Shown here one piece after another: positions 5,072 to 18,686 of a stretch of DNA of 20,386 bases (its first letter is position 1; each line of letters opens with the position of its first letter). Position numbers and translations under genes: made by a program. A model generated the notes under the pieces. The model made no database searches, was not told where the DNA came from, and saw only the letters and a list, made by a program, of their open reading frames with translations. The DNA comes from a virus. Where the stretch lies: IMG/VR virus record IMGVR_UViG_3300034109_000901, positions 1 through 20,386 of that record; one strand, written 5' to 3'.

Positions 5072-5380
5072 ATGCAAAACATCAAAGCCAAGTTTTTAAA
5101 TTTAAAAACATCTATTTATTCAAAATTTATACGTTTACAAAATCCAGAAATATTTAAATCAGATAATGATGACGAAAAAAATATTGAAGTAATACTGGAA
5201 AATACAGCAATCGATATTGCAGATGATCCAGTAATTGAAACTACTGATGAGCAGATTGAAGAAAAGACTGTTTCTAAATTGGATGAAAATAGTGTCGATA
5301 TAAAAAAGAATAATCCTATTCCAAAAAAGAAAAGTTCAAAACCACCTACTAAAAAACCAATCGCTAAAAAAAACGTGTAA
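5072..5380 (+). CDS. Hypothetical protein with acidic middle and Lys/Pro-rich tail, 102 aa
   Basis: A 102-aa protein with three compositional parts: a basic aromatic N-terminus (residues 1-30), an acidic middle (about 31-75), and a Lys/Pro tail (IPKKKSSKPPTKKPIAKK) at about 82-100. No hydrophobic segment is long enough for a membrane span and most of the chain looks disordered. AAGAAGG just before the ATG is the ribosome binding site, after a 36-base gap. A terminator follows the stop, so this closes the upstream transcription unit. The tail resembles nucleic-acid-binding tails and histone-like tails, but no specific family is recognised. Confidence 0.7.
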   Translation: MQNIKAKFLNLKTSIYSKFIRLQNPEIFKSDNDDEKNIEVILENTAIDIADDPVIETTDEQIEEKTVSKLDENSVDIKKNNPIPKKKSSKPPTKKPIAKKNV

Positions 5381-5397
5381 AACTATAAAATATATAG

Positions 5398-5436
5398 TAG
5401 AAAAGAGGTTCCAAAAATGGGCCTCTTTTCTATTTT
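5398..5436 (+). terminator. Rho-independent terminator
   Basis: The 11-bp arm 5398-5408 (TAGAAAAGAGG) pairs perfectly with 5422-5432 around a 13-base loop, followed by TTTTC. It follows the 5072-5380 gene by 18 bases. A short inverted repeat ACTATA/TATAGT lies just upstream at 5382-5398. An ATG at 5417 lies in the loop and is thus an unlikely start for the next gene. Confidence 0.85.
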
Positions 5437-5476
5437 CTGTTACTATTTATTTAAACTGTATGAAAGGGTTTATATT

Positions 5477-5602
5477 ATGGATGGCAAGAGTTTAGGTATG
5501 AAAACTTCGTCAGAAAATAATCATTATAAGTTACTGAAAGATTCAGTAATGAAAGTTCAAGATTTTAAAAAGCAGAATCCTCCTATTAAAAAGAAGAGCT
5601 GA
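5477..5602 (+). CDS. Small basic protein, 41 aa
   Basis: The start at ATG 5477 is preferred because AAAGGG at 5463-5468 lies eight bases upstream. An in-frame ATG at 5417 sits in the terminator loop and would add 20 odd hydrophobic residues. The product is 41 residues, basic, ending in PPIKKKS. It opens the run of small lysine-rich genes and shares its stop with the next start (TGATG). With so short a chain, function cannot be assigned; good ribosome binding site placement and coupling are the main support. Confidence 0.6.
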   Translation: MDGKSLGMKTSSENNHYKLLKDSVMKVQDFKKQNPPIKKKS

Positions 5603-5757
5603 TGGCTTTTAAAAAAAAGATATATATTAGTGGGCCTAGAATGGGGACTAATAATCAAAAGTCTGTGACTGATAAATCTTTAAAATTTATTTCTACTAGA
5701 AAACGAGACAATAATGGCAGAAAAAAAGGATCCAAGGTTAGCTCGCGCAGGAGTTAG
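5602..5757 (+). CDS. Small basic protein, 51 aa, overlapping the next gene
   Basis: ATG at 5602 overlaps the previous TGA, and the frame runs to TAG at 5755-5757, 44 bases into the gene at 5714. The 51-residue product starts MAFKKKIYISGPRMG and ends in a dense Arg/Lys/Ser tail (RKKGSKVSSRR). AGAAGAG just upstream is a weak ribosome binding site. The long overlap is unusual here, where overlaps are otherwise 1-14 bases. Part of the tail could be chance reading of the neighbour's start. Kept because coupling and composition match the rest of the cluster. Confidence 0.45.
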   Translation: MAFKKKIYISGPRMGTNNQKSVTDKSLKFISTRKRDNNGRKKGSKVSSRRS

Positions 5758-6001
5758 TGGTTATAATAAGCCAAAAAAAACACCTTCACATCCAACTAAA
5801 TCTCATGTTGTAGTCGCTAAAGTTGGCGCAAAAGTTAAGACTATTAGATTTGGTCAACAGGGCGTCGTAGGTGCTGGTGATAGCCCTAAATCTGCTAAAG
5901 ATAAAGCTAGAAAGAAGAGCTATTATGCTAGACATAATGCTCAGGATCCTAATCCAAGTAAGTTATCTGCTAGATATTGGTCGAATAAGGTTAAGTGGTG
6001 A
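5714..6001 (+). CDS. Conserved-looking basic phage protein, 95 aa
   Basis: A 95-aa, strongly basic protein with distinct N- and C-terminal blocks: MAEKKDPRLARAGVSGYNKP at the start, a PTKSHVVVAK strand-like segment and IRFGQQGV in the middle, and SARYWSNKVKW at the end. I recall small proteins of this pattern (KARHN-type helix then a YW...KVKW end) from many environmental phages and plasmids, usually with no assigned function. The middle could form a small beta sheet while both ends contact nucleic acid. It precedes the holin-like gene by six bases. Confidence 0.8.
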   Translation: MAEKKDPRLARAGVSGYNKPKKTPSHPTKSHVVVAKVGAKVKTIRFGQQGVVGAGDSPKSAKDKARKKSYYARHNAQDPNPSKLSARYWSNKVKW

Positions 6002-6007
6002 TTCGCA

Positions 6008-6268
6008 GTGGAAGCGATCATTGTTGCCGTAATTGCTGCAGTTGGAACTGTCCTTGCAGGTCTCGTTCAAAAAAGTCGTAGAGAGAATAAAAACGATCAT
6101 AATACCGTTGCGGAAATGATCATTGATGTCAAAGATCAAATTATTAATTTACATCATAAGATAGATCATGTAGATAATCAAGTTGATAAAGTTGAAGTTC
6201 AAATGCAGGATCATATGATGTGGCATTATCGTAAATCTAATCAATTTAAGAAAAAAGAGGAGGTGTAA
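6008..6268 (+). CDS. Holin-like membrane protein with coiled-coil tail, 86 aa
   Basis: Reading from GTG at 6008, the first 19 residues form one hydrophobic segment (EAIIVAVIAAVGTVLAGLV), followed by a positive stop (QKSRRENK) and then a long amphipathic helix with heptad-like hydrophobics (IIDVKDQIINLHHKIDHV). This resembles one-span phage holins and holin-associated proteins with an N-out membrane anchor, which permeabilise the inner membrane for the endolysin. The endolysin lies 0.8 kb downstream on the same strand. The ribosome binding site is poor (AAGTGGTG, distant), so expression may depend on upstream translation. It could instead be a membrane-anchored spanin or adhesion-accessory protein. 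No signal-peptide cleavage site is evident. Confidence 0.6.
   Translation: MEAIIVAVIAAVGTVLAGLVQKSRRENKNDHNTVAEMIIDVKDQIINLHHKIDHVDNQVDKVEVQMQDHMMWHYRKSNQFKKKEEV
6257..6265 (+). promoter_or_regulatory. Near-perfect Shine-Dalgarno sequence
   Basis: GAGGAGGTG at 6257-6265 is the strongest ribosome binding site in the window, five bases before the ATG at 6271. It lies wholly inside the last codons of the holin-like gene, whose Glu-Glu-Val end it encodes. It supports the 37-aa gene being real and highly translated. Confidence 0.85.
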
Positions 6269-6270
6269 TT

Positions 6271-6384
6271 ATGGCTTATAAAAAGAAAGCTTCAGCAAAA
6301 AAGTCAACTACAAAAATGACCGCAGCGCAGAAAAAACTTCCTCCTTTTATTAAAAAGGCAATTATGAAGAAAAAAGGTATGTGA
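6271..6384 (+). CDS. Very small lysine-rich protein, 37 aa
   Basis: ATG at 6271 follows the near-perfect ribosome binding site at 6257-6265, and the frame ends at TGA 6382-6384. The 37-residue product begins MAYKKKASAKK, has KMTAAQKKLPPFIKKAI in the middle, and ends KKKGM; about fifteen of the 37 residues are Lys. A short helix with Pro-Pro-Phe is the only recognisable structure. Strong translation signal plus extreme basicity suggests an abundant nucleic-acid- or virion-associated peptide, but no function is known to me. It lies two bases after the holin-like gene. Confidence 0.75.
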   Translation: MAYKKKASAKKSTTKMTAAQKKLPPFIKKAIMKKKGM

Positions 6385-6389
6385 TTTAA

Positions 6390-6566
6390 ATGGTCAAAAA
6401 GAATGTTCCTAAAAATCCTAAGTTATGGTCAAAAGTTAAATCTCAAGCTAAATCAAAATTTGATGTATATCCCTCAGCATATGCAAATGCTTGGGCATCC
6501 AAAAAATATAAAGCTTCGGGTGGAACATGGAAAACTGTTAGCACTAAGAAGTCTGGAAAGAAATAA
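6390..6566 (+). CDS. Small basic protein with YPSAYANAW motif, 58 aa
   Basis: The frame opens at ATG 6390, five bases after the previous stop, and ends at TAA 6564-6566 with a second stop right behind. The 58-residue product contains KFDVYPSAYANAWASKKY followed by KASGGTWKT. This Tyr-Pro-Ser-Ala-Tyr-Ala-Asn block with a following Lys-Tyr...Gly-Gly-x-Trp is a pattern I recall from small proteins of many environmental phages, without known function. The chain is otherwise Lys-rich. An AAGG about a dozen bases upstream is its only ribosome binding site, so coupling to the preceding gene is likely. A 99-aa minus-strand frame over it is a shadow. Confidence 0.8.
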   Translation: MVKKNVPKNPKLWSKVKSQAKSKFDVYPSAYANAWASKKYKASGGTWKTVSTKKSGKK

Positions 6567-6568
6567 TA

Positions 6569-6853
6569 ATGGCTGGACCTAAAGGTGTTGGTTTGACAAA
6601 ATGGTTTAATCAACAATGGGTTAATATCGGTGCGCCAAAAAAGAATGGAAAGTGGCAACCATGTGGAACGTCTGGCGCAAGTGGAAGCGGATATGCTAAG
6701 TGTGTTCCGGTAGCAAAAGCGAATGCTATGAGTTCTGGACAACGTTCTTCAGCAGTTAAAAGAAAAAGGGCTTCTGGAACTCCTTCTAAGGGAACTAAAG
6801 GTCAGAAACCAAAGAATGTCTCCACTTTTCCAAAAAAGAAAAAAGGAAAATAA
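6569..6853 (+). CDS. Small basic protein with WFNQQWVNIGAPKK motif, 94 aa
   Basis: A 94-aa basic protein with a conserved-looking N-terminal half: LTKWFNQQWVNIGAPKK, then WQPCGTSG, then YAKCVPVAKANAMSSGQ with a second Cys, and AVKRKRASG. The last third is disordered and Lys/Ser/Gly-rich (VSTFPKKKKGK). Two Cys (in PCG and KCVP) could pair or bind metal. I recall this W-F...W-V-x-I-G-x-P-K-K...C-G...KCVP layout from many uncultured-phage proteins of unknown function. GGAAAG upstream is the ribosome binding site; the start is two bases after the previous gene. Not related to known nucleic-acid enzymes as far as can be seen. Confidence 0.8.
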   Translation: MAGPKGVGLTKWFNQQWVNIGAPKKNGKWQPCGTSGASGSGYAKCVPVAKANAMSSGQRSSAVKRKRASGTPSKGTKGQKPKNVSTFPKKKKGK

Positions 6854-6855
6854 TT

Positions 6856-7065
6856 ATGGCACAAAAGAAGAATGATAAATGGATCCAGGGTGCAATTAAG
6901 CGACCAGGCGCTTTCACAGCTAAAGCTAAAAAAAAGAATATGTCTGTTTCAGCTTTCGCTACAGCAGTAACTAAAAATCCTTCAAAGTATAGCTCTACAA
7001 CTGTTCGTCAGGCTAATCTGGCAAAAACTTTAAAAAAGATTTCAGCTAAAAGAAAGAAAAAATAA
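6856..7065 (+). CDS. Small basic protein with KWIQGAIKRPGA motif, 69 aa
   Basis: A 69-residue, Lys/Ala-rich protein: KWIQGAIKRPGAFTAKAKKK, then MSVSAFATAV, then RQANLAKTLKKI and a KRKKK end. The first block and the ANLAKTLKK helix form a pattern I recall from small proteins of diverse phages and large viruses, with no assigned function. GGAAAA upstream of ATG 6856 is the ribosome binding site. It lies two bases after its neighbour and one base before the endolysin gene, so it shares that transcript. Confidence 0.8.
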   Translation: MAQKKNDKWIQGAIKRPGAFTAKAKKKNMSVSAFATAVTKNPSKYSSTTVRQANLAKTLKKISAKRKKK

Positions 7066-7066
7066 T

Positions 7067-7918
7067 ATGTCTAGACTTCCAATTTCTCCAGTTGTTTTAC
7101 CTAAAAGTTTATCAAATCAGCCTAATGGAAATTTAGATGTTTCTCTTTTAGTTGAAATAGGCAATAAGGGTAAATTGCATGTTAATGCAGCTAGAGCTTG
7201 GAGAGCCTTTGTTGCTGAAGCTTCTAAAATTGGTTTAGATTTAACATATACCTATGGTGGAGCATATAGATCATATCAGGATCAGGTGAACCTGTTTAAA
7301 CAACGATACACTACTTCTCTTTTACAGGGTAGACCTAGAAAGTGGTGGAATAATCAATGGTGGTATTTGCGACCAAAGATGGCAGAAGCGGCAGTCCCAG
7401 GTACATCTAATCATGGAATCGGTCTAGCGATAGATGCTGCATTTGACAAAGATCCTTCAGATGGAATTGGGCCAGATGATGCGGCAAGTATATCGGGTCA
7501 TCCAAAATTTGGATGGTTCAGAGATAATGCTATTAGATTTGGCTTTAGTTTCGAACTTCAATCTGAACCTTGGCATATCCGATATGTTGCAGGTGACAAT
7601 GTTCCTGCAGGTGTTCTATTATGGGAGGGTTCAGTTGCGCCAGCAATACCGCCATTTGATCCAGAGAATGGGAAATGGAGTCTATGGCCTTTTGCAAATA
7701 AACCAGCGGCAAAAGAAGGTGATGCGGGCGACCGTGTCAAATATTTGCAAGGTGTTCTGAAATTAAAGGCTGCTCAAGATATTGGTAAGATAGATGGATT
7801 TTTTGGTCCAAAAACCGAGCAAGCTGTTATGAATGTTCAGAGACTATTTAAGCTTGGTGTTGATGGCTGGGTTGGTCCAAGAACATGGCAGGCAATAGAT
7901 TTATTGGCCGGAAAATAA
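7067..7918 (+). CDS. Endolysin: M15/VanY-type peptidase with C-terminal peptidoglycan-binding domain
   Basis: A 283-aa modular lysin. Residues about 40-175 form a zinc peptidase of the M15/VanY type: GGAYRSYQDQ at 64-73, the PGTSNHGIGLAID block at 111-123 holding H116 and D123, and EPWHIRY at 167-173 with E167 and H170. H116, D123 and H170 are the zinc ligands. After a Pro-rich linker (190-205), residues about 215-283 form a PG_binding_1 domain with GDRVKYLQGVL, KIDGFFGPKTEQAV and VDGWVGPRTWQAI. M15 enzymes cut the peptide part of peptidoglycan. There is no signal peptide, so export would rely on a holin such as the 6008 product. The ribosome binding site is weak (AGAAAG) and the start lies one base after the previous stop, suggesting coupled translation. 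A virion-borne lysin is a less likely alternative. Confidence 0.9.
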   Translation: MSRLPISPVVLPKSLSNQPNGNLDVSLLVEIGNKGKLHVNAARAWRAFVAEASKIGLDLTYTYGGAYRSYQDQVNLFKQRYTTSLLQGRPRKWWNNQWWYLRPKMAEAAVPGTSNHGIGLAIDAAFDKDPSDGIGPDDAASISGHPKFGWFRDNAIRFGFSFELQSEPWHIRYVAGDNVPAGVLLWEGSVAPAIPPFDPENGKWSLWPFANKPAAKEGDAGDRVKYLQGVLKLKAAQDIGKIDGFFGPKTEQAVMNVQRLFKLGVDGWVGPRTWQAIDLLAGK

Positions 7919-8017: not shown

Positions 8018-8734
8018 ATGGCAAAGGTTAGTATAATACTGACAGTTTACAATAAGCCAGAGTGGTTAAAAGAATGTATTGATTCTGTTATTGATCAGAC
8101 CTATCAGGATTGGGAACTCCTTATTATGGAGGATAACTCACCAGATAAAACTGTAGTTGAGATTATAAATTCATATGATGATAAGAGAATTCTTAAATTC
8201 TTTTCAAATGTTTCAGATGAAGATAGATATAAAACAGCGCGTTACGCAACATTAATAAATACTGCTTTCCCTCTGAGCGTTGGGGAGTATATTACATATT
8301 TAGTTGATGATGATAAATATTATCCTGATAGACTACAAACATTAGTTGAATATATGGATAGCAATCCTGGTCATCAAGTAGTTTATCATTCTTTAGCAAA
8401 TATTGATGCAAATAGTAATCCTGGTGGAATTCGCAGCATTAAAGGGATACTTGATGGAAAGTCTGATGATACAATGGCCTTCAATTACGTCGACCATAAT
8501 ATGGTTATGCATACAAGACAGGCATTTATAGATGTTAATGGTTGGTATGATGTTCCTGGTGTTTGGGGTGGCGCAGATGCGTATTTTTGGCGTAGATTAA
8601 ATGAAGCTGGATATTGCTTATATCCAGTCGGAACTGCCGATAAACCTCTTGCAGCAAAAAGATATCATGAAAAAAATGTACAGTCTTTAATTGTGCGTGG
8701 TGAATTTTTTCCTGATGGAAAGACTCCGTGGTAA
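8018..8734 (+). CDS. Family 2 glycosyltransferase
   Basis: A 238-aa GT-A glycosyltransferase of the GT2 type. The opening VSIILTVYNKPEWLKECIDS and the WELLIMEDNSPD segment are the standard nucleotide-binding start; ITYLVDDDKYY at about 92-102 carries the DDD (DXD-type) metal site at residues 97-99. Downstream GGADAYFWRRL at about residue 190 fits the acceptor/catalytic-base region. It transfers a sugar from a nucleotide donor; donor and acceptor cannot be read from sequence. No membrane segment is present, so it acts in the cytoplasm. GGAGTAAT before the ATG is the ribosome binding site. First gene of the glycan block after the predicted promoter. Confidence 0.88.
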   Translation: MAKVSIILTVYNKPEWLKECIDSVIDQTYQDWELLIMEDNSPDKTVVEIINSYDDKRILKFFSNVSDEDRYKTARYATLINTAFPLSVGEYITYLVDDDKYYPDRLQTLVEYMDSNPGHQVVYHSLANIDANSNPGGIRSIKGILDGKSDDTMAFNYVDHNMVMHTRQAFIDVNGWYDVPGVWGGADAYFWRRLNEAGYCLYPVGTADKPLAAKRYHEKNVQSLIVRGEFFPDGKTPW

Positions 8735-8735
8735 C

Positions 8736-9407
8736 ATGCCGCAATATCCAATTTTCATTAACTGTAGAGATAGATTAACATGCACATCAATGCTATTGGA
8801 TCGTTTAGTATCTGTAGGATGTGAAAACATTCTTTTGGTTGATAATGGATCTACTTATGAACCTTTATTAGACTGGTATAAAAGTGTTAATGTTGAAGTT
8901 ATCTATTTGAATGATAACTTTGGTCAGCAAGCACCATGGCGAGCTGGCTTAGTTGAAAAATACGCTTCAAATAATTATTTTGTAGTAACAGATCCTGATA
9001 TTCTTCCAATTGATGAATGTCCAGATGATTTTATGGATTATTTTAAATCAGTTCTAGACAGATATAGTGATCGAACAAAAGTTGGATTCAATCTAAAAAT
9101 AGATGACATTCCTGATCATTATAGATTTAAAAAAGAAGTGATTGCACATGAGTCTCAGTATCAAAATTGGCTAGGTCCAGAAGACTTACTTTTGTTTGCA
9201 CCTATAGATACTACATTTGCACTTTATCGACCGAATGCGTCTATAGATATTAGTTTTAGTTGCAGAACTAAATACCCGTATATAGCTAGACATTATCCTT
9301 GGTATTTAGATTCAAACAATCCAGGTGATGAAGAAATCTACTATATTAATAATGCTAATCCAGTCATAAACAGTTGGTCACATATGCGCAAGCCATTTTG
9401 GATGTAA
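8736..9407 (+). CDS. Glycosyltransferase-like protein
   Basis: A 223-aa protein with a GT-A-like plan: PIFINCRDRLTCTSMLLDRL at the start, ILLVDNGSTYEPLLDW at 32-47, and FVVTDPDILPID at about 82-93 with a D-P-D metal-site candidate at 86-88. A later HYPWYLDSNNPGDEE segment may form the acceptor side. ATG at 8736 is chosen because it gives the family-type N-terminus and sits one base after the previous stop; in-frame 8715 and 8691 lie inside the preceding gene. The ribosome binding site is weak, implying coupled translation. Substrates unknown. It is a distant relative of its neighbours, not a recent duplicate. Confidence 0.78.
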   Translation: MPQYPIFINCRDRLTCTSMLLDRLVSVGCENILLVDNGSTYEPLLDWYKSVNVEVIYLNDNFGQQAPWRAGLVEKYASNNYFVVTDPDILPIDECPDDFMDYFKSVLDRYSDRTKVGFNLKIDDIPDHYRFKKEVIAHESQYQNWLGPEDLLLFAPIDTTFALYRPNASIDISFSCRTKYPYIARHYPWYLDSNNPGDEEIYYINNANPVINSWSHMRKPFWM

Positions 9408-9409
9408 AA

Positions 9410-10096
9410 ATGGATAACTATACAAGTATTGTGATTCCAACAATAGGTAAAGATAATATGATCCTATCTTTAATCGATAGGATTAAAGACATTAACGATA
9501 CCTGTGTTAAAGACATATTTATATTCGATAACGGAATGCCTAATGACACGTTGCAGGCATGTCAATCTTATAATGTAAGAGTAATCCATTCTCATGGAAA
9601 AAATATTTATTCTATGTGGAATGACGGAGTTAGTTATGCATTATTGAATAACAGTAAATCCATATGCATTTTCAATGATGATTTAAATATACCATTAATA
9701 AATGATTGGTTTAAAAAATTAATTAGACCATTATCTGAAGATGATGTGTGGGCAGTCTCGGCTAACTATAATCCATTTATTCATAACGATGATACCGAAT
9801 TTAAAGAAGTGATTGGCACTTTTAAAGATGGCGGATTTGCAGGCTTTTGTTTTGCAGTTAAGCTTGATGCCTATATTAAGGGCTTGCCATTATTTGACGA
9901 TACATATAATTGGTGGTTTGGTGACGACGACTTCGTACATTCTGTACATAAAGCCGGTAAAAAAACTGTTATATCTTTGAATGCAATTGTAGAACATATC
10001 CATGGTGGATCTAGATCAGTGCATCAATATACTCCAGAATTTAATACAATGGTTGAAAAAGATAAGCAACACTACTTCAGAAAGTGGCATTCATGA
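9410..10096 (+). CDS. Family 2-like glycosyltransferase
   Basis: A 228-aa GT-A protein. The N-terminus SIVIPTIGKDNM and IFIFDNGMPND fit nucleotide-sugar binding; CIFNDDLNIP at about 86-95 holds an N-D-D metal-site motif at 89-91; GGFAGFCFAVK and NWWFGDDDFVHSV at about 141-180 fit the acceptor side, with the GDDD acid cluster; VEHIHGGSRS near the end is a plausible metal-coordinating His region. ATG at 9410 follows GGATG seven bases upstream, two bases after the previous stop; the ATG at 9374 is inside the previous gene and rejected. A cytoplasmic sugar-transfer role in the surrounding glycan cluster is inferred; substrate unknown. Confidence 0.83.
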   Translation: MDNYTSIVIPTIGKDNMILSLIDRIKDINDTCVKDIFIFDNGMPNDTLQACQSYNVRVIHSHGKNIYSMWNDGVSYALLNNSKSICIFNDDLNIPLINDWFKKLIRPLSEDDVWAVSANYNPFIHNDDTEFKEVIGTFKDGGFAGFCFAVKLDAYIKGLPLFDDTYNWWFGDDDFVHSVHKAGKKTVISLNAIVEHIHGGSRSVHQYTPEFNTMVEKDKQHYFRKWHS

Positions 10097-10776
10097 ATCA
10101 AGTTTCTATACCCAAAGTTCTATTAGGTGTTATTGATAATAAAAGACCAGAATTTTTAGCCGCAACTATTGAGTCGTTACAAAAGAATATCAACTATAAC
10201 TTTGGTTATAAAGTTCTCATAAATGATTCTGGTGATGCAGAGTACGCAAGGTTTTTGGAGAGTGTTTATGGTGATTATTTTGATCAAATAATTTCTCATA
10301 AAGAAAACTTGGGGTTATCTGGTTCAATTAGAAGTTTATGGGCTTTAGCTGAAGAATTAGATGTCGATTACGTTTGGCACCAGGAAGGTGATTTCACATT
10401 TAATGAAAATATCTCAATCGAACATATTATTAAAATTCTGGAAAATGATAGATTTTTAGCGCAGGTAGCTTTAAAAAGGCAACCATGCAATCCAACAGAA
10501 TTGGAGTATGGTGGATTTATGGAATTGAATAGAGATTCATATTTATATAATGATGAGCTTAACTATCTTAGCCATTCTAATTTTTTTACACTGAATCCAA
10601 GCTTATACCCAAGATGGGTATATAAACTTGGTTGGGAAAGTGGCTGGGGAGAAGCAGAGTTTTCTAGTATGTTATTTTCAAATAGATTTTTGAAGTGTGG
10701 ATATCTTGGTAGTCTCATTGATCAACCAAAAGTTCTTCATATTGGCGGATATCGTGCCGAAGGTTGGTTTGTATGA
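10093..10776 (+). CDS. Phage-type glycosyltransferase with GNDSGD/EGDF motifs
   Basis: A 227-aa protein with KVLLGVIDNKRPEFLAATI at 8-26, VLINDSGDAEYARFL at 41-55, ENLGLSGSIRSLW at 71-83 and DYVWHQEGDFTFNENI at 92-107, then VALKRQPCNPTE and a terminal VLHIGGYRAEGWF. I recall this family, with DNxRPxFL and a HQE-x-DF metal motif, from actinobacteriophages, where it is annotated as a glycosyltransferase. Here the metal motif reads E98-G-D100 rather than the E-D-D I expect. The start overlaps the previous TGA (ATGA). A cytoplasmic role is likely; acceptor unknown. Confidence 0.8.
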   Translation: MNQVSIPKVLLGVIDNKRPEFLAATIESLQKNINYNFGYKVLINDSGDAEYARFLESVYGDYFDQIISHKENLGLSGSIRSLWALAEELDVDYVWHQEGDFTFNENISIEHIIKILENDRFLAQVALKRQPCNPTELEYGGFMELNRDSYLYNDELNYLSHSNFFTLNPSLYPRWVYKLGWESGWGEAEFSSMLFSNRFLKCGYLGSLIDQPKVLHIGGYRAEGWFV

Positions 10777-11414
10777 GTATTTATGATGAGTCTTTTTATG
10801 AATATATTGATTCTGGAGCTTTAAGATCTGCAAGAGTAGTAGTTCCGTATCTAATGGATATTTTTAATCCATCTTCAGTAGTTGATATTGGCTGTGGTAC
10901 AGGTGCGTGGTTAACGGCTTTTGCTGAAAATGGGATAACGGATATATTTGGTGTTGATGGTAGTTATAATGAATTTGCTCCAAAAATTCTAGGTGATAAT
11001 TTTATGGCTGCAGACCTATCAGAAAATTTTATCATAGATAAAAAGTTTGATTTAGCAATAACCTTAGAGGTTGCAGAACATATATCCGAATTTAGTGCAG
11101 ATATTTTTGTTCAAAATGTATGCAGATTATCTAATAATATAGTTTGGTCTGCCGCAGTCCCTGGTCAGAGAGGTTTAAATCATGTTAATGAACAATTTCC
11201 TAGTTACTGGATTCCAAAATTTAAATCTTTAGGATACAAATGTGATGGTGAATTTAGGTTTAAATTATGGTATAATGATGATATCGAAACTTGGTATCGG
11301 CAAAATATACTCTTATTTTCTAAAGAGATGATTTCTGATACCGATGTTAGAGATTTAATCCATTATAATAATTTTTCTAACTATGATACTATCGAGGATA
11401 GATATGTTTACTGA
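10773..11414 (+). CDS. SAM-dependent methyltransferase, class I
   Basis: A 213-aa Rossmann-fold methyltransferase. Motif I reads VVDIGCGTGAWL at 36-47, followed by IFGVDGSYNEF with the acidic Asp that contacts the SAM ribose, AADLSENF, and FDLAITLEVAEHI as motif IV-type strand. The C-terminal part (NNIVWSAAVPGQRGLNHVNE) forms the later strands. It donates a methyl group from SAM; in this glycan cluster a sugar hydroxyl is the likely acceptor, though protein or other small-molecule targets cannot be excluded. ATG overlaps the previous stop as ATGA; a TTG/GTG start farther up is inside the neighbour. It overlaps the acyltransferase gene by 11 bases. Confidence 0.86.
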   Translation: MSIYDESFYEYIDSGALRSARVVVPYLMDIFNPSSVVDIGCGTGAWLTAFAENGITDIFGVDGSYNEFAPKILGDNFMAADLSENFIIDKKFDLAITLEVAEHISEFSADIFVQNVCRLSNNIVWSAAVPGQRGLNHVNEQFPSYWIPKFKSLGYKCDGEFRFKLWYNDDIETWYRQNILLFSKEMISDTDVRDLIHYNNFSNYDTIEDRYVY

Positions 11415-12060
11415 AGATGAGATCAGGCCAACTGCGGTTATTATTATTGGCGCAGGTGGACATTCTCATGACATTGTTGATATCTGCTTGTCGGCAAGAA
11501 TGCCAATTCTAGGTTTTTTAGATGACAATGTAGACGGTAGTTTTATATTGGGTAGGGTAAAAGATTATAAGGATATTATAAATAATCCAAGTTATTCTTG
11601 GTGTAATGTTAAGTATGTTATTGGAATTAATGATAGTGTTATTAGAAAAAGAATTGATCAAATTTTAAGTGAGATGTATGCAATTCCCGCTACCATCGTT
11701 CATGGTAGTGCGATAGTGGGATCTAATGCTAAGATTGGTCCAGGTTGTGTTTTAGGGCCGGGTGCAATTCTAACTACTAATGTGACTTTAGGTAGACACG
11801 TACATCTGAATACTCATGCCTCAGTAAACCAAGGTTCCACTATCGGAGACTACTGCACGCTTAGTCCAGGAGTTAAGGTCTGTGGTGATGTCGTAGTCGG
11901 AGATTGTGTCCAGTTTGGAGCCAATTCATCTATCATTAATATGATCACAGTCGGAGATAATGTTACTTTAGGTGCTGGCGCAGTAGTTGTAAAAGATTTA
12001 CCTAGCAATTGTACGGCAGTTGGAGTACCAGCAAAAGTTATTAAGGAGAAAAATGTCTGA
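11404..12060 (+). CDS. NeuD/PglD-type sugar O/N-acyltransferase, left-handed beta-helix
   Basis: A 218-aa protein with two parts. The N-terminal Rossmann-like domain has VIIIGAGGHSHDIVD at 12-26 and ILGFLDDN at 35-42. The rest is a left-handed beta helix of hexapeptide repeats: NAKIGPGCVLGPGAIL, STIGDYCTLSPGVKV, then VTVGDNVTLGAGAVVV, ending VGVPAKVIK. These enzymes move an acetyl group from acetyl-CoA to an amino sugar (PglD) or sialic-acid-type sugar (NeuD). GAGGA at 11394-11398 fixes the start at ATG 11404. The usual catalytic His after the NT-x-A-S-V segment is replaced: residues 137-144 read THASVNQG, with Gln at the position where I expect His. Activity may therefore differ or be lost. 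Confidence 0.85.
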   Translation: MFTEDEIRPTAVIIIGAGGHSHDIVDICLSARMPILGFLDDNVDGSFILGRVKDYKDIINNPSYSWCNVKYVIGINDSVIRKRIDQILSEMYAIPATIVHGSAIVGSNAKIGPGCVLGPGAILTTNVTLGRHVHLNTHASVNQGSTIGDYCTLSPGVKVCGDVVVGDCVQFGANSSIINMITVGDNVTLGAGAVVVKDLPSNCTAVGVPAKVIKEKNV

Positions 12061-12658
12061 AGGAAGAATTGGTCCAGTTGGACCGGAATCAAGATTTAGT
12101 CGGAGTGATTGGCTGTGTCCTCATCCAGAATATTGGTCAAGTACTGATGATCACTCAACAGAAATTGAAGTATCTGATATGTTAGCGGGTCTGATTAGGG
12201 GTCTTCAGCCAGATTATGTTATTGAAACAGGAAGTGCATGGGGACAGACTTCTGAAGCTATTGGTAAAGCTTTAAAATTAAATGGACATGGAAGACTTGT
12301 AAGTCTAGAAGTAGACGAAGAGCGTGTTCAATATTCACTAGATAGATGCAAAGGACTTCCTGTTAATTGCTTACAAATGTCTTCTATGGATTTTATTCCA
12401 GAAGAAGAAATACAATTCGCTTTTTTTGATTCCTTGTTTCCTTTGCGGACTTTAGAATTTAAAAGATATTATCCATATATGAGAAAGAATAGCATTGTGG
12501 CATTTCATGATGCAAAACCTGGCCATGGTGGTGGTCAATTTCCAGATTACAATATGGATTTAAGAACAGCTATTCTAGTAGATTTAGAAAATGCTGGAAT
12601 GCTAAAAGCTATATATATGCCTACTCCTCGTGGAATTATGATAGCCGAAGTACAATAA
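12053..12658 (+). CDS. SAM-dependent methyltransferase, CmcI/Methyltransf_24-like
   Basis: A 201-aa class I methyltransferase-like protein. The SAM-binding loop reads DYVIETGSAWGQTSEAIG at 54-71 and RLVSLEVDEERVQYS carries the acidic residue of motif II; FAFFDSLFPLRTLEF and VAFHDAKPGHGGG match the metal-binding Asp and His-Asp features of the CmcI or rhamnosyl O-methyltransferase type. Such enzymes methylate sugar hydroxyls or related acceptors. AAGGAG at 12043-12048 supports ATG 12053, which overlaps the acyltransferase stop by eight bases. The first 30 residues are Pro/Ser/Trp-rich and unusual. A sugar acceptor is inferred from context only. Confidence 0.8.
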   Translation: MSEGRIGPVGPESRFSRSDWLCPHPEYWSSTDDHSTEIEVSDMLAGLIRGLQPDYVIETGSAWGQTSEAIGKALKLNGHGRLVSLEVDEERVQYSLDRCKGLPVNCLQMSSMDFIPEEEIQFAFFDSLFPLRTLEFKRYYPYMRKNSIVAFHDAKPGHGGGQFPDYNMDLRTAILVDLENAGMLKAIYMPTPRGIMIAEVQ

Positions 12659-12682
12659 ATTATTATTAGATTGGAGTAAGTT

Positions 12683-13186
12683 ATGCATGATGCAGCCTTT
12701 ACTTTTTACAAAGAAAGTTTAAGCCAATTAAGCCCAATGAATGTATTAGAGTTTGGTAGCTATAACATTAATGGATCGGTAAGAGATGCGTATCCTAATG
12801 CTAATTCATGGCACGGTATTGATGTTGTTCCGGGAAATGGTGTTGATGAAGTTGCTGATGCAGCTGTGTGGAAGTCTGATAGACGATATGATGTCGTTAT
12901 ATGCGCAGAAGCTTTTGAGCATACTTCGGATTGGGAAAAGATAATTAAAAATGCAAAAGAGCATTTGAATCATAATGGTCTATTCCTTGCTTCTTGTGCA
13001 TCTAGAAATCGACCTCCACATTCAGCAATTGATGGTGGACCTTTACGAGATGGTGAATATTATGAAAATATTTCTCCAGAAGAAATGACTCAATGCCTTG
13101 AGTCAATGAGCTGGTCAAGCTTTGAAGTCATTCCAGCTGATGGTTATTTTGGAGACGATGATCTTTATATTAAAGCAATTAAGTGA
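12683..13186 (+). CDS. SAM-dependent methyltransferase, Methyltransf_11-like
   Basis: A compact 167-aa methyltransferase. Motif I is NVLEFGSYNINGSVRD at about 20-35, HGIDVVPGNGVDEVAD supplies the ribose-binding Asp, and YDVVICAEAFEHTSDW is the motif IV strand. A GLFLASCASRNRPPHS strand-loop follows. It is shorter than most of the family, having lost most of the C-terminal lid. GGAG at 12672-12675 is the ribosome binding site after a 24-base gap. The target is unknown; in this cluster it is probably a sugar or a small metabolite. Confidence 0.85.
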   Translation: MHDAAFTFYKESLSQLSPMNVLEFGSYNINGSVRDAYPNANSWHGIDVVPGNGVDEVADAAVWKSDRRYDVVICAEAFEHTSDWEKIIKNAKEHLNHNGLFLASCASRNRPPHSAIDGGPLRDGEYYENISPEEMTQCLESMSWSSFEVIPADGYFGDDDLYIKAIK

Positions 13187-13192
13187 TATTGT

Positions 13193-13948
13193 ATGAGCAG
13201 TTTATTTGTTGTCGCAATGGTTAAAGATGAAGAGGACATAATTGGCCATAATCTTAACTACCTTTTAAATCAGGATATAGATCATTTTATTATTGCAAAT
13301 AACTTGTCTATAGATTCTACAAATGAAATTTTGCAGGATTTAAAATCTCAAAATCCAAATCTTTTTACAATTTTACAAGATGAGGAAGTCGCTTATTATC
13401 AATCGGCAAAAATGAACAAACTTATATATACTGCAGCCGAAATGGGCGCATCTCATATCATTCCACTTGATGCGGATGAGATCTGGTTTACACATAGTGG
13501 AAAGTCATTAGGTTCAGAAATCAAGAGTATGCTAGTTGATAAAACGTATGCAACAGTATTTGATATGGTGCCAAAAAATAATTCCTTTACATCTAATGGT
13601 AATCCGATTACAGATATATGCTTTCAAGAACCTAGGGTTAAAGCCTTACCATCTGTCGCTTTTAAGTTTACTGAAGGGTGCTCAATAGTCCAGGGTAACC
13701 ATGATGTAGTTATGCCAGGTAGTCAAAGTGAAGATTTACTATATATTAAACATTATCAATATCGAAGTTTTGATCAGTACAAAAATAAATTACGAAATGG
13801 CAAAAAAGTTTATGATGCAACAGACTTATCTTATGGCCATGGTACTCATTGGAGAATTGGTGGGGAAATGTCTGATGATGAACTGTTAAATAATTGGAAT
13901 AACTTTGTTAACCAACCCGATCTTATCTATTCGCCAACTTTTATTTAA
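13193..13948 (+). CDS. Glycosyltransferase, Glyco_tranf_2_4/GT92-like
   Basis: A 251-aa protein with the order VVAMVKDEEDIIGHNLNYLL at 6-25, HFIIANNLSIDSTNEIL at 31-47, HIIPLDADEIWF at 88-99 with a D93-A-D95 metal motif, and a late EDLLYIKHYQYRSFDQY segment. The MVKDEE...HN...L opening and DADEI/DADEF pair are hallmarks of this group (GT2 relatives that modify surface polysaccharides). It closes the run of sugar-modifying genes and starts six bases after the previous stop with ATG 13193; the ribosome binding site is weak. No membrane anchor is seen. Donor and acceptor unknown. Confidence 0.85.
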   Translation: MSSLFVVAMVKDEEDIIGHNLNYLLNQDIDHFIIANNLSIDSTNEILQDLKSQNPNLFTILQDEEVAYYQSAKMNKLIYTAAEMGASHIIPLDADEIWFTHSGKSLGSEIKSMLVDKTYATVFDMVPKNNSFTSNGNPITDICFQEPRVKALPSVAFKFTEGCSIVQGNHDVVMPGSQSEDLLYIKHYQYRSFDQYKNKLRNGKKVYDATDLSYGHGTHWRIGGEMSDDELLNNWNNFVNQPDLIYSPTFI

Positions 13949-13960
13949 AGGATAAATTAA

Positions 13961-14155
13961 ATGTCAAAAAAACCAGCAAAAACTCCTAATGACTATATTA
14001 ATAAAAAAGAAGATATTGTAGGTAAACCAGTACTATATATCGGAATGGGTGAAAAAATATTCACTTGCCCAACGTGTAGTCGGTCCTTTTCTAAAGGGAT
14101 GATTTACGAGCATGCGACTTTGGCCTATTGTTCTCGGCGCTGCATTACTGTTTAA
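13961..14155 (+). CDS. Small zinc-knuckle protein (TRASH/FCS-like), 64 aa
   Basis: A 64-residue protein whose C-terminal half reads FTCPTCSRSFSKGMIYEHA then YCSRRC. The cysteine pattern is C-x2-C-x17-C-x3-C, close to TRASH/FCS-type treble-clef zinc knuckles that bind one zinc ion. The N-terminal half is basic (KKPAKTP) with KPVLYIGMGE. AGGA before the ATG is the ribosome binding site, after a 12-base gap. Such modules bind metal, nucleic acid or proteins; here it lies between the glycan cluster and the Cys4 pair, so a virion assembly or regulatory accessory role is possible but unproved. Confidence 0.75.
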   Translation: MSKKPAKTPNDYINKKEDIVGKPVLYIGMGEKIFTCPTCSRSFSKGMIYEHATLAYCSRRCITV

Positions 14156-14171
14156 ATTTAAAGGAGTTACA

Positions 14172-14519
14172 GTGAAAATATATTGGTTAGCTGAATTTTT
14201 AGAGCAGATGGATTCTAAACTAGCACCTGCTGAGCAAGAGTATGTTAATTCAATGTTATCAATTGTTAAAAAATATGGTAAGTTAGCAGATAGAGACAGT
14301 AATGGTATATGGGTTGGTTATGTCGAACCTGAAGATAATGACAATTTTGAAATGGGCATTAAGTGTTCAAACTGTGCCTTTATGGAAACTGAAACATCTT
14401 GTCAAATTGTAGCTAGACCTATTTCTCCTGGTGGATACTGCAGATTAGCTGCCATCCCTCCTGGTTTAGTTACTTCTGACGACGAAGATGATTCAGAAGA
14501 TGATGGTGAAGAGGATTAA
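14172..14519 (+). CDS. Cys4-motif protein, 115 aa (paralogue A)
   Basis: Start chosen at GTG 14172, five bases after AAGGAG at 14161-14166; an in-frame start at 14112 lies inside the zinc-knuckle gene. The product opens KIYWLAEFLEQ, has a helix to about residue 45, then IKCSNCAFMETETSC, IVARPISPGGYC and RLAAIPPGLV, giving C-x2-C-x8-C-x11-C, and ends in an acidic tail (DDEDDSEDDGEED). The Cys layout with aromatic/Gly-rich loops resembles metal sites of high-potential iron-sulfur or zinc-ribbon type; which metal is not decidable. It resembles the following gene in both N-terminal WL-x-x-F and C-terminal Cys block, so the two are paralogues. Confidence 0.78.
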   Translation: MKIYWLAEFLEQMDSKLAPAEQEYVNSMLSIVKKYGKLADRDSNGIWVGYVEPEDNDNFEMGIKCSNCAFMETETSCQIVARPISPGGYCRLAAIPPGLVTSDDEDDSEDDGEED

Positions 14520-14523
14520 TACT

Positions 14524-14859
14524 GTGAGTGATAATATTTGGTTAAGTTCATTTATAGAATCTGAGGATGGCGATAGTGAAGATATTCCAGAGCCTCATAA
14601 CAATCTTAATGATCGTCAAAAAAAATTATATGAATACTATGAAAGTTTAGTTGAAGAATTTGGAATGTTCGATCAGTCAAGTAAGGCTAATGGTGCCCAT
14701 TATGCACCGGGTAATAAAAATCCATTTATTAGTAGTGGTATGATTTGTAAGAACTGTGTTTTTTTTGTTGGTGGCGGTGGCTGCGAATTAGTTAAAGGTG
14801 TAATTCAAGAAAATGCGATATGTAAGTTTTGGATTATTCCTGAAGTTTTGATTAAATAA
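14524..14859 (+). CDS. Cys4-motif protein, 111 aa (paralogue B)
   Basis: GTG at 14524, with GAGG at 14510-14513 upstream, gives a 111-aa product; an in-frame ATG at 14488 is inside the previous gene. Residues 4-11 (NIWLSSFI) match paralogue A. After an acidic stretch and a helix (RQKKLYEYYESLVEEFG), the end carries ICKNCVFFVGGGGC, then VKGVIQENAIC and KFWIIPEVL, giving C-x2-C-x7-C-x10-C. The C-x-x-C-x-F...C...V-x-G-x-I...C...W-x-I-P pattern is one I recall in phage proteins located beside tail-fibre genes, sometimes labelled HiPIP-like. Role unknown; adjacency to the fibre gene suggests virion assembly or fibre-related function. Confidence 0.78.
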   Translation: MSDNIWLSSFIESEDGDSEDIPEPHNNLNDRQKKLYEYYESLVEEFGMFDQSSKANGAHYAPGNKNPFISSGMICKNCVFFVGGGGCELVKGVIQENAICKFWIIPEVLIK

Positions 14860-18112: not shown

Positions 18113-18284
18113 TATTCACCGTCACTACTGTTGCAGTCAAGTAACTTACCGAACTAACTGCAGCATTAGAAAATCAAAATTCATCCAGATGATGCTTTAA
18201 TATTTTTTCTGATCAAATTATAGAAAAGAAAAATTTAAGATTACTATTGGTTCAGAAGATAATTAATTTTATATGGAGATTTAA
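18113..18284. other. Gene-free gap with possible relic of an older fibre 3' end
   Basis: This 172-base gap changes from GC-rich to AT-rich at about 18150. Reading the AT part in one frame gives LTELTAALENQNSS before a stop. Similar Leu/Glu/Ala helices end many tail-fibre proteins. No ribosome binding site or start precedes it. An imperfect inverted repeat (GTTGCAGT at about 18128 with ACTGCAGC at about 18157) has no T-run behind it and is not a convincing terminator. GGAG just before 18285 serves the next gene. Confidence 0.4.
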
Positions 18285-18686
18285 ATGGCAAATGCATTAT
18301 ATCCAAAATATAAAGAAGCTTTACTGCAATCTGGTGTAAACTTAAGCACCGGTAACGTTAAAGCAGTTTTAGTAGATTTAGCTGACTATACTTATAGTGC
18401 GGCTCATACTTTTTTATCAGATATTCCAAGTCTTGGTAGAGTTGCTACTTCAGGCAACTTAGGATCAAAAACTTTTACTAACGGTGTTTTCGATAGCGCT
18501 GATCCAAGCTTTACAGCCGTTACTGGTGACGTTAGCGAAGCGATAGTGCTGTTTGTCGATACGGGTACAGCATCAACGTCACCGTTGATAGCTTTTTATG
18601 ATACTGGCGTTACAGGTTTGCCTGTGACACCTAATGGTGGCGACATTAATATTGTGGTTAATGCTTCTGGTTGGTTTGCTCTCTAA
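18285..18686 (+). CDS. Phage structural-type protein, 133 aa
   Basis: A 133-aa protein: MANALYPKYKEALLQSGVNL at the start, VKAVLVDLADYTYSAAHTF at 25-43, SDIPSLGR, a SKTFTNGVFDSADPSFTAV segment, EAIVLFVDTG and LPVTPNGGDINIVVNASGWF at the end. I recall this order from many environmental phages beside fibre genes, where it is an uncharacterised virion protein. It has a beta-rich look with no membrane segment. The gene is AT-rich, lying between two GC-rich blocks. GGAG upstream is the ribosome binding site. Function is inferred from place only. Confidence 0.8.
   Translation: MANALYPKYKEALLQSGVNLSTGNVKAVLVDLADYTYSAAHTFLSDIPSLGRVATSGNLGSKTFTNGVFDSADPSFTAVTGDVSEAIVLFVDTGTASTSPLIAFYDTGVTGLPVTPNGGDINIVVNASGWFAL

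Follow-up and report, generated by a model that had tools for sequence, protein, structure and literature searches.

We analysed a cluster of small genes at positions 5,072 to 7,065 of IMG/VR virus record IMGVR_UViG_3300034109_000901, the whole of which (20,386 bases; a single contig, with no others) we refer to as the window. A first-pass annotation had described eight strongly basic proteins at this site, downstream of a terminator, grouped around a holin-like gene and leading into an endolysin gene. All eight open reading frames are present at the sizes given there (102, 41, 51, 95, 37, 58, 94 and 69 residues; hereafter p102, p41 and so on), and the tight spacing from p41 onwards, the transmembrane (TM) protein gene inside the cluster and the endolysin gene next to it were likewise confirmed, while strong basicity and a position behind the terminator hold for seven of the eight. 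The exception, p102 (5072..5380, plus strand), is near-neutral (19 K/R versus 18 D/E, net charge +1) and lysine-rich only in its C-terminal tail. Because it lies before the terminator and its relatives are confined to this phage's own record and one near-identical locus (L082), p102 is outside the cassette, which proper runs from p41 (5477) to p69 (7065) and comprises seven basic proteins and one membrane-anchored coiled-coil protein.

An intrinsic terminator with a 16-bp stem (5396..5434) divides p102 from the cassette and is followed by a candidate phage promoter element, RTTACTATWW (5440..5447), 30 nt upstream of the p41 start; both lie on the plus strand, as do all the cassette genes and the endolysin gene. 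From p41 through the endolysin, genes overlap or sit 1–6 nt apart. The first is p41 itself (5477..5602), a small basic protein with homologs in 22 loci. It is followed by p51 (5602..5757; 98 loci), with a YISGPRMGTNN motif and a K/R tail, the gene of which overlaps that of p95 by 44 nt in a different frame, and by p95 (5714..6001), which was found in 28 phage records. Next come the TM/coiled-coil protein (6008..6268; 86 residues, GTG start; phrog_32850, E 2.2e-10) and the K-rich p37 (6271..6384; LPPFIQKAI motif, 102 loci). The last three are p58 of the YPSAYANAW family (6390..6566), p94 of the WFNQQWVNIGAPKK family (6569..6853; 131 loci) and p69 of the KWIQ..IKRPGAF family, with a four-helix domain (6856..7065). 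The endolysin, with VanY peptidase and PG_binding_1 domains (7067..7918; Pfam E 5e-16 and 2.3e-12), is directly downstream.

The shared strand, the tight spacing, the terminator and the recurrent promoter-like motif support the co-transcription that had been suggested for these genes, and p41 to p69 form an apparent single transcription unit leading into the endolysin. The terminator argument rests on position, not number, as one terminator is predicted in the region versus a mean of 1.9 in shuffled sequences. Of 64 unique regions that precede related cassettes, 55 contain the RTTACTATWW core, and the element is strand-biased in the relatives (201 plus-strand versus 43 minus-strand copies in 864 kb); we regard it as a candidate phage promoter. 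The window by itself holds 5 copies versus 2.8 expected, which is not above chance. A further copy lies at 18241-18248, ahead of the gene at 18285.

The seven basic proteins carry net charges of +15 to +35 per 100 residues, compared with −10 to +3 for the other genes of the window (p102 +1, TM protein −1). Lysines in the short C-terminal tails partly coincide with A-rich sequence just upstream of the next start codon. With the last ten residues removed, p41 falls to a marginal +6.5 per 100 residues, and the other six retain strong basicity (+18 to +30). Median ratios of nonsynonymous to synonymous substitution rates (dN/dS) across relatives, calculated for the seven families with enough relatives (TM protein included, p41 left out), were 0.39 for p51, 0.12 for p95, 0.40 for the TM protein, 0.20 for p37, 0.17 for both p58 and p94, and 0.22 for p69. 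These seven families are under purifying selection, and their coding status is beyond chance.

We then considered how often the families travel together, using related loci fetched in two sets, by p94 (80 loci) and by p69 (80 loci), which constitute a non-random sample. p58 is present in 75 of the 80 loci fetched with p94, and those fetched with p69 contain p37 in 77, p51 in 74, the TM protein in 62 and p95 in 52 of 80. The families were found together in about 100 related viral contigs, with all best matches (751/751) sharing one strand and a median span of 1.9 kb; p58-type and p94-type genes are adjacent in the window and most relatives, and variation in gene order consists mostly of p69 and the lysin changing place. 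In a collection independent of the fetched loci (50,697 phage records, themselves partly non-independent), p58 and p94 occur together in 2 records versus 0.0013 expected, and p58 and p95 in 2 versus 0.006 expected; tblastn of the phage collection with the dNMP (deoxynucleoside monophosphate) kinase and with the TM protein returned no matches. The window p95 has 10 matches among genome contigs, all in metagenome-assembled genomes, and in two cases p69 or p58 lies beside p95, so this family appears to be viral, not cellular. Neither of the counter-indications named in the first-pass annotation, scattered families or small frames free of purifying selection, was seen. The cassette is genuine, but its edges shift, and it is a conserved and probably late module. 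Separately, an extra small basic family, DUF6496 (KQAIAIA motif; relatives in 43 loci), opens the cassette of one locus (L083:4946-5131) and lies near p95 in MW202701 (L176:4638-4931), and four loci (L096, L109, L115 and L132, at ~4.4-4.9 kb) have, ~0.5-1 kb before the cassette, another gene for a membrane-anchored coiled-coil protein (MDNYYSVIVAVIASLSS...).

The idea that this is an undescribed system requires qualification. p95, p94 and p69 have strong, near full-length matches to PHROGs 7595, 23735 and 20603 (E 2.7e-33, 7.3e-28 and 8.6e-21, respectively) and p58 matches phrog_27331, so that the families are in part already catalogued, there and in Pfam as DUF5872, DUF6321 and possibly Tlr6F/DUF5754; what stands is that all are of unknown function, the label carried by all four PHROGs. 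p58 aligns to residues 1-54 of DUF5872 (PF19197; 27.1 bits, E 6.7e-6), missing the cut-off of 27.5 bits by 0.4, and residues 53-112 are matched by divergent p94 relatives from P-SCSP2 (E 5e-14, 53.3 bits) and Pelagibacter phage HTVC027P (E 5e-4). Because the two segments are complementary in this way, profile alignments assign the two halves of DUF5872 to neighbouring genes, one to p58 and the other to p94; the window p94 itself gave no match to DUF5872 in Pfam. In one related locus (L158:6056-6988), p58 is split by an apparent intein of ~230 residues exactly inside the invariant motif (YP^SAYANAW), with a Cys start, a TPDH-type block and an ITGN^S end, and a weak Pfam intein match (E 0.022). 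The p94 gene of phage DSL-LC04 (L166:5971-6255) is unannotated in its GenBank record.

p95 scores 13.4 bits against DUF5754 (PF19058; cut-off 27.4 bits), and of 16 relatives 8 match that profile with E-values no higher than 1, the lowest being 0.011; kinship between p95 and Tlr6F/DUF5754 is possible, and we treat it as a lead rather than a result. The match of p95 to DUF6321 (PF19846; 15.8 bits, E 0.022) likewise misses the cut-off (28.5 bits), and genes beside p58/p94 in HTVC027P, DSL-LC04 and P-SCSP2 pass it. Beyond phages, both Tlr6F and DUF5872 are found in DNA viruses of eukaryotes, the former in polinton-like viruses, virophages and giant viruses as well as some phages (PMC4642659; also PMC12220804) and the latter in the annotation of an algal giant virus (PMC12085832). 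Searches of PDB sequences with p58, p69, p94 and p95 found no matches, and a search of the literature for functional data on DUF5872 and Tlr6F found none.

Related domains occur in other phages as fusions and in head or packaging gene blocks. Fusions are seen in the T4-like cyanophages S-BM3, S-B43 and S-CAM9. In S-BM3, a single protein (SBM3_00185, 337 residues) contains p94-like, p58 and DUF6321 domains, and its gene comes right after that of the small terminase. In proteins of S-B43 (427 residues) and S-CAM9 (S-CAM9_088, 699 residues), profiles identify p94-like and DUF6321 domains, and a p58-like segment (WPSAYASGALVKC) was recognised by eye, not by profile; both genes are located between the small and large terminase genes, and the S-B43 protein is annotated as 'structural protein', a label whose basis is untraced. 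In unrelated phages, small cassette-type genes also lie near capsid and cement genes (DSL-LC04), between the small terminase (TerS) and portal genes (C72C1), and some genes after the major capsid protein (MCP) gene (S-CBS2), and Synechococcus phage S-CRES1 has consecutive genes for TM/coiled-coil, basic, p58-like fusion and p95 proteins. The annotation of S-CRES1 gp95 (L173:3897-4250) as 'lysozyme' is likely a mistake, this being a TM/coiled-coil protein. A search of 17 large related contigs for T4 gp23 (PF07068) found no match, but the control was without a match anywhere too, so that this negative carries no weight. In P-SCSP2, a cassette-type gene sits between the scaffold and MCP genes, and in cr50_1 a p69 relative sits between portal/peptidase and MCP, positions that would suit scaffold-like or capsid-binding peptides that act as cofactors of head assembly and may then leave the particle. 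We consider such a role very unlikely, as the terminase and lysis positions found elsewhere do not fit one scaffold function and the proteins bear no resemblance to a known scaffold.

Evidence from virions comes from two directions. Four unique peptides of S-CREM2 gp137 were detected by mass spectrometry in CsCl-purified virions (PMC10665884 Table 3); the C-terminus of this protein is DUF6321 (E 3.5e-10), and its gene lies between the terminase genes. The second line concerns p69, for which an AlphaFold2 (AF2) model predicts four helices (predicted local distance difference test score, pLDDT, 82.5). Foldseek searches with this model returned domains inside crassvirus cargo protein 1 proteins, at a root-mean-square deviation of about 1 angstrom or less, and also one crass-like protein named ADP-ribosyltransferase. 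Since the Foldseek E-values are weak (0.1-0.8), the sequence evidence outweighs the structural match: p69 and the crassvirus cargo domains align over the whole domain, with strong profile matches. Proteins of cr108_1 and cr128_1 that contain the p69 domain are homologous to crAss001 gp45 (phmmer 4.2e-40 and 1.5e-148; Pfam crAss_CARG1), the cargo protein 1 that the virion carries and, in the published model, ejects (PMC10172136). p69 did not match the Pfam CARG1 portal-binding domain (PF25725), and p69-family profile searches, like VIA-align, gave nothing above chance. A cr127_1 protein annotated as 'putative endolysin/lysozyme' (L164:4971-6701) is likely misannotated and related to crassvirus cargo protein 1.

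Because relatives lie in head and packaging blocks, a DUF6321 relative is present in virions and the p69 domain occurs in virion cargo proteins, we favour, at about even confidence, the reading that the cassette is a late operon of small basic virion-internal, DNA-associated or cargo proteins. These would be made at assembly time and would bind or neutralise the packaged DNA, be loaded into the head together with it, or both, and some of the related domains may be ejected along with the genome. The p95, p58, p94 and p69 domains have separate genes in this phage group, and in other phages these domains or relatives of them are joined to one another or to known virion cargo. The TM protein and endolysin would apparently belong to the operon because they are late genes as well, the TM protein possibly acting in lysis too. 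We infer late expression, entry of the window's own proteins into the virion, DNA binding and joint action. Among the jobs suggested in the first-pass annotation, DNA compaction in the capsid fits this evidence best, and for an attack on host chromatin evidence was found neither for nor against.

The positions of relatives between or beside terminase genes, together with the strong basicity of the proteins, would also suit late nucleic-acid-binding proteins that never enter the virion and act inside the cell, as cofactors of packaging, recombination or replication or as inhibitors of host transcription or translation. The upstream neighbourhood points the same way: the genes ahead of the cassette in the window include those for exonuclease, resolvase, sigma-like, RNase H and dNMP kinase proteins, and the last two keep their upstream place in relatives. 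We judge this explanation unlikely, in view of the DUF6321 relative in virions and the p69 domain in virion cargo proteins, and Pfam and PHROG searches revealed no similarity to characterised takeover or packaging factors.

The endolysin immediately downstream raises the question of lysis, for which the cassette could provide an accessory system of disruptin-like cationic peptides that disrupt the outer membrane, acting with a releasin- or holin-like TM protein and the endolysin. Consistent with this, a p69 relative in Thermus phage G20c has genes for holin and peptidoglycan hydrolase as neighbours, and a p95 relative lies shortly downstream of a peptidoglycan (PG)-binding protein in P12053L. 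The TM protein has a single N-terminal TM segment and a near-neutral tail that reads as a coiled coil, and its best weak Pfam match is DUF2730 (E 0.0018; 18.8 bits, below the cut-off of 24.9), the Mu releasin family (PMC9239132), with SLATT_4 also under cut-off (E 0.0037). That the gene at 6008-6268 encodes a TM protein thus stands, and we set aside the holin label, given the single TM segment and a sole, weak holin match (phrog_443, E 0.038). Linkage to lysis was assessed in 47 distinct cassettes, each containing at least five families, by the presence of homologs of the window lysin within 1.5 kb. Because 20 of these 47 have no such homolog nearby (an unrelated lysin being possible in individual cases), a lysis-only role seems unlikely, and the membrane attack proposed earlier is weakened. 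By eye, no lysin was seen near the cassette of L083. Both L101 and L132 have an apparent lysin on its own downstream, again preceded by the RTTACTATWW motif. The constant linkage between lysis genes and cassette expected of disruptin-type peptides was not observed. Inspection of the endolysin N-terminus revealed no obvious hydrophobic TM or signal-anchor-release (SAR) segment. Relatives that sit among head genes or belong to eukaryotic viruses also argue against this account, which we regard as distinctly unlikely; that the hosts of eukaryotic DNA viruses with Tlr6F and DUF5872 require no peptidoglycan lysis counts in favour of the virion-internal operon.

Several observations weigh against placing the cassette proteins inside the head. 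DNA binding is suggested by charge alone. The matches of p95 to Tlr6F and to DUF6321 both lie under Pfam cut-offs, and the AF2 model of p95 is poor (pLDDT 58). S-CREM2 gp137 shares DUF6321 only, without p58 or p94, and we know of no virion proteome for this phage or a close relative. On the crassvirus side, a search of crAss001 gp45 for the p69 domain gave no significant match (E 1.7), and Foldseek of p69 against the PDB returned no match. Finally, genes of the lysis type are neighbours of the relatives in Thermus phages, in a cobavirus and in 27 of the 47 distinct related cassettes.

By extension, p58, p94, p95/DUF6321/Tlr6F and p69 might constitute a mix-and-match toolkit of protamine-like DNA-condensing and cargo-loading domains, common to eukaryotic DNA viruses (giant and polinton-like) and to tailed phages that infect many different hosts, with an operon layout in this phage and fused forms in others; we offer this broader idea tentatively and consider it rather doubtful. 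The cassette is carried by a group of large aquatic phages; its families are common in phages of such waters, some reaching giant viruses, and their functions have hitherto been unassigned. The fusions and the crassvirus link merge separate families of 'unknown function' into one testable hypothesis, which concerns how double-stranded DNA viruses achieve charge balance or condensation of their genomes, or package material along with them.

Elsewhere in the window, the region between the lysin and a tail-fibre-like gene (8018-13948) encodes predicted glycosyltransferases, methyltransferases and an acetyltransferase, as read off the translations, and the two neighbouring proteins at 14112-14859, which look like a duplication, resemble each other in the spacing of their cysteines (CxNCxF...C...C).

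Among known systems, the Mu releasin gp25 (DUF2730) resembles the TM protein in having a single N-terminal TM segment and a longer tail and in being encoded near an endolysin, but the profile match is under cut-off and the endolysin here is without an apparent SAR domain. Like Tlr6F/DUF5754, p95 is small, and it shows weak profile similarity around the TIRFGQQG motif. In DUF5872, one profile covers both halves, whereas in the cassette the halves are two neighbouring genes. The T4-like cyanophage fusion (phrog_727 / phrog_30733; T4-GC_119) combines p94-like, p58-like and DUF6321 domains in one protein, encoded beside the terminase genes; these fusions differ from the cassette in being single large proteins with additional domains, and no separate p69 or TM gene of the cassette type was seen alongside them. 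Several homologs of crassvirus cargo protein 1 (PF25725), in turn, hold the p69 four-helix domain within ejection proteins of about 600-850 residues, whereas p69 is a lone domain of 69 residues.

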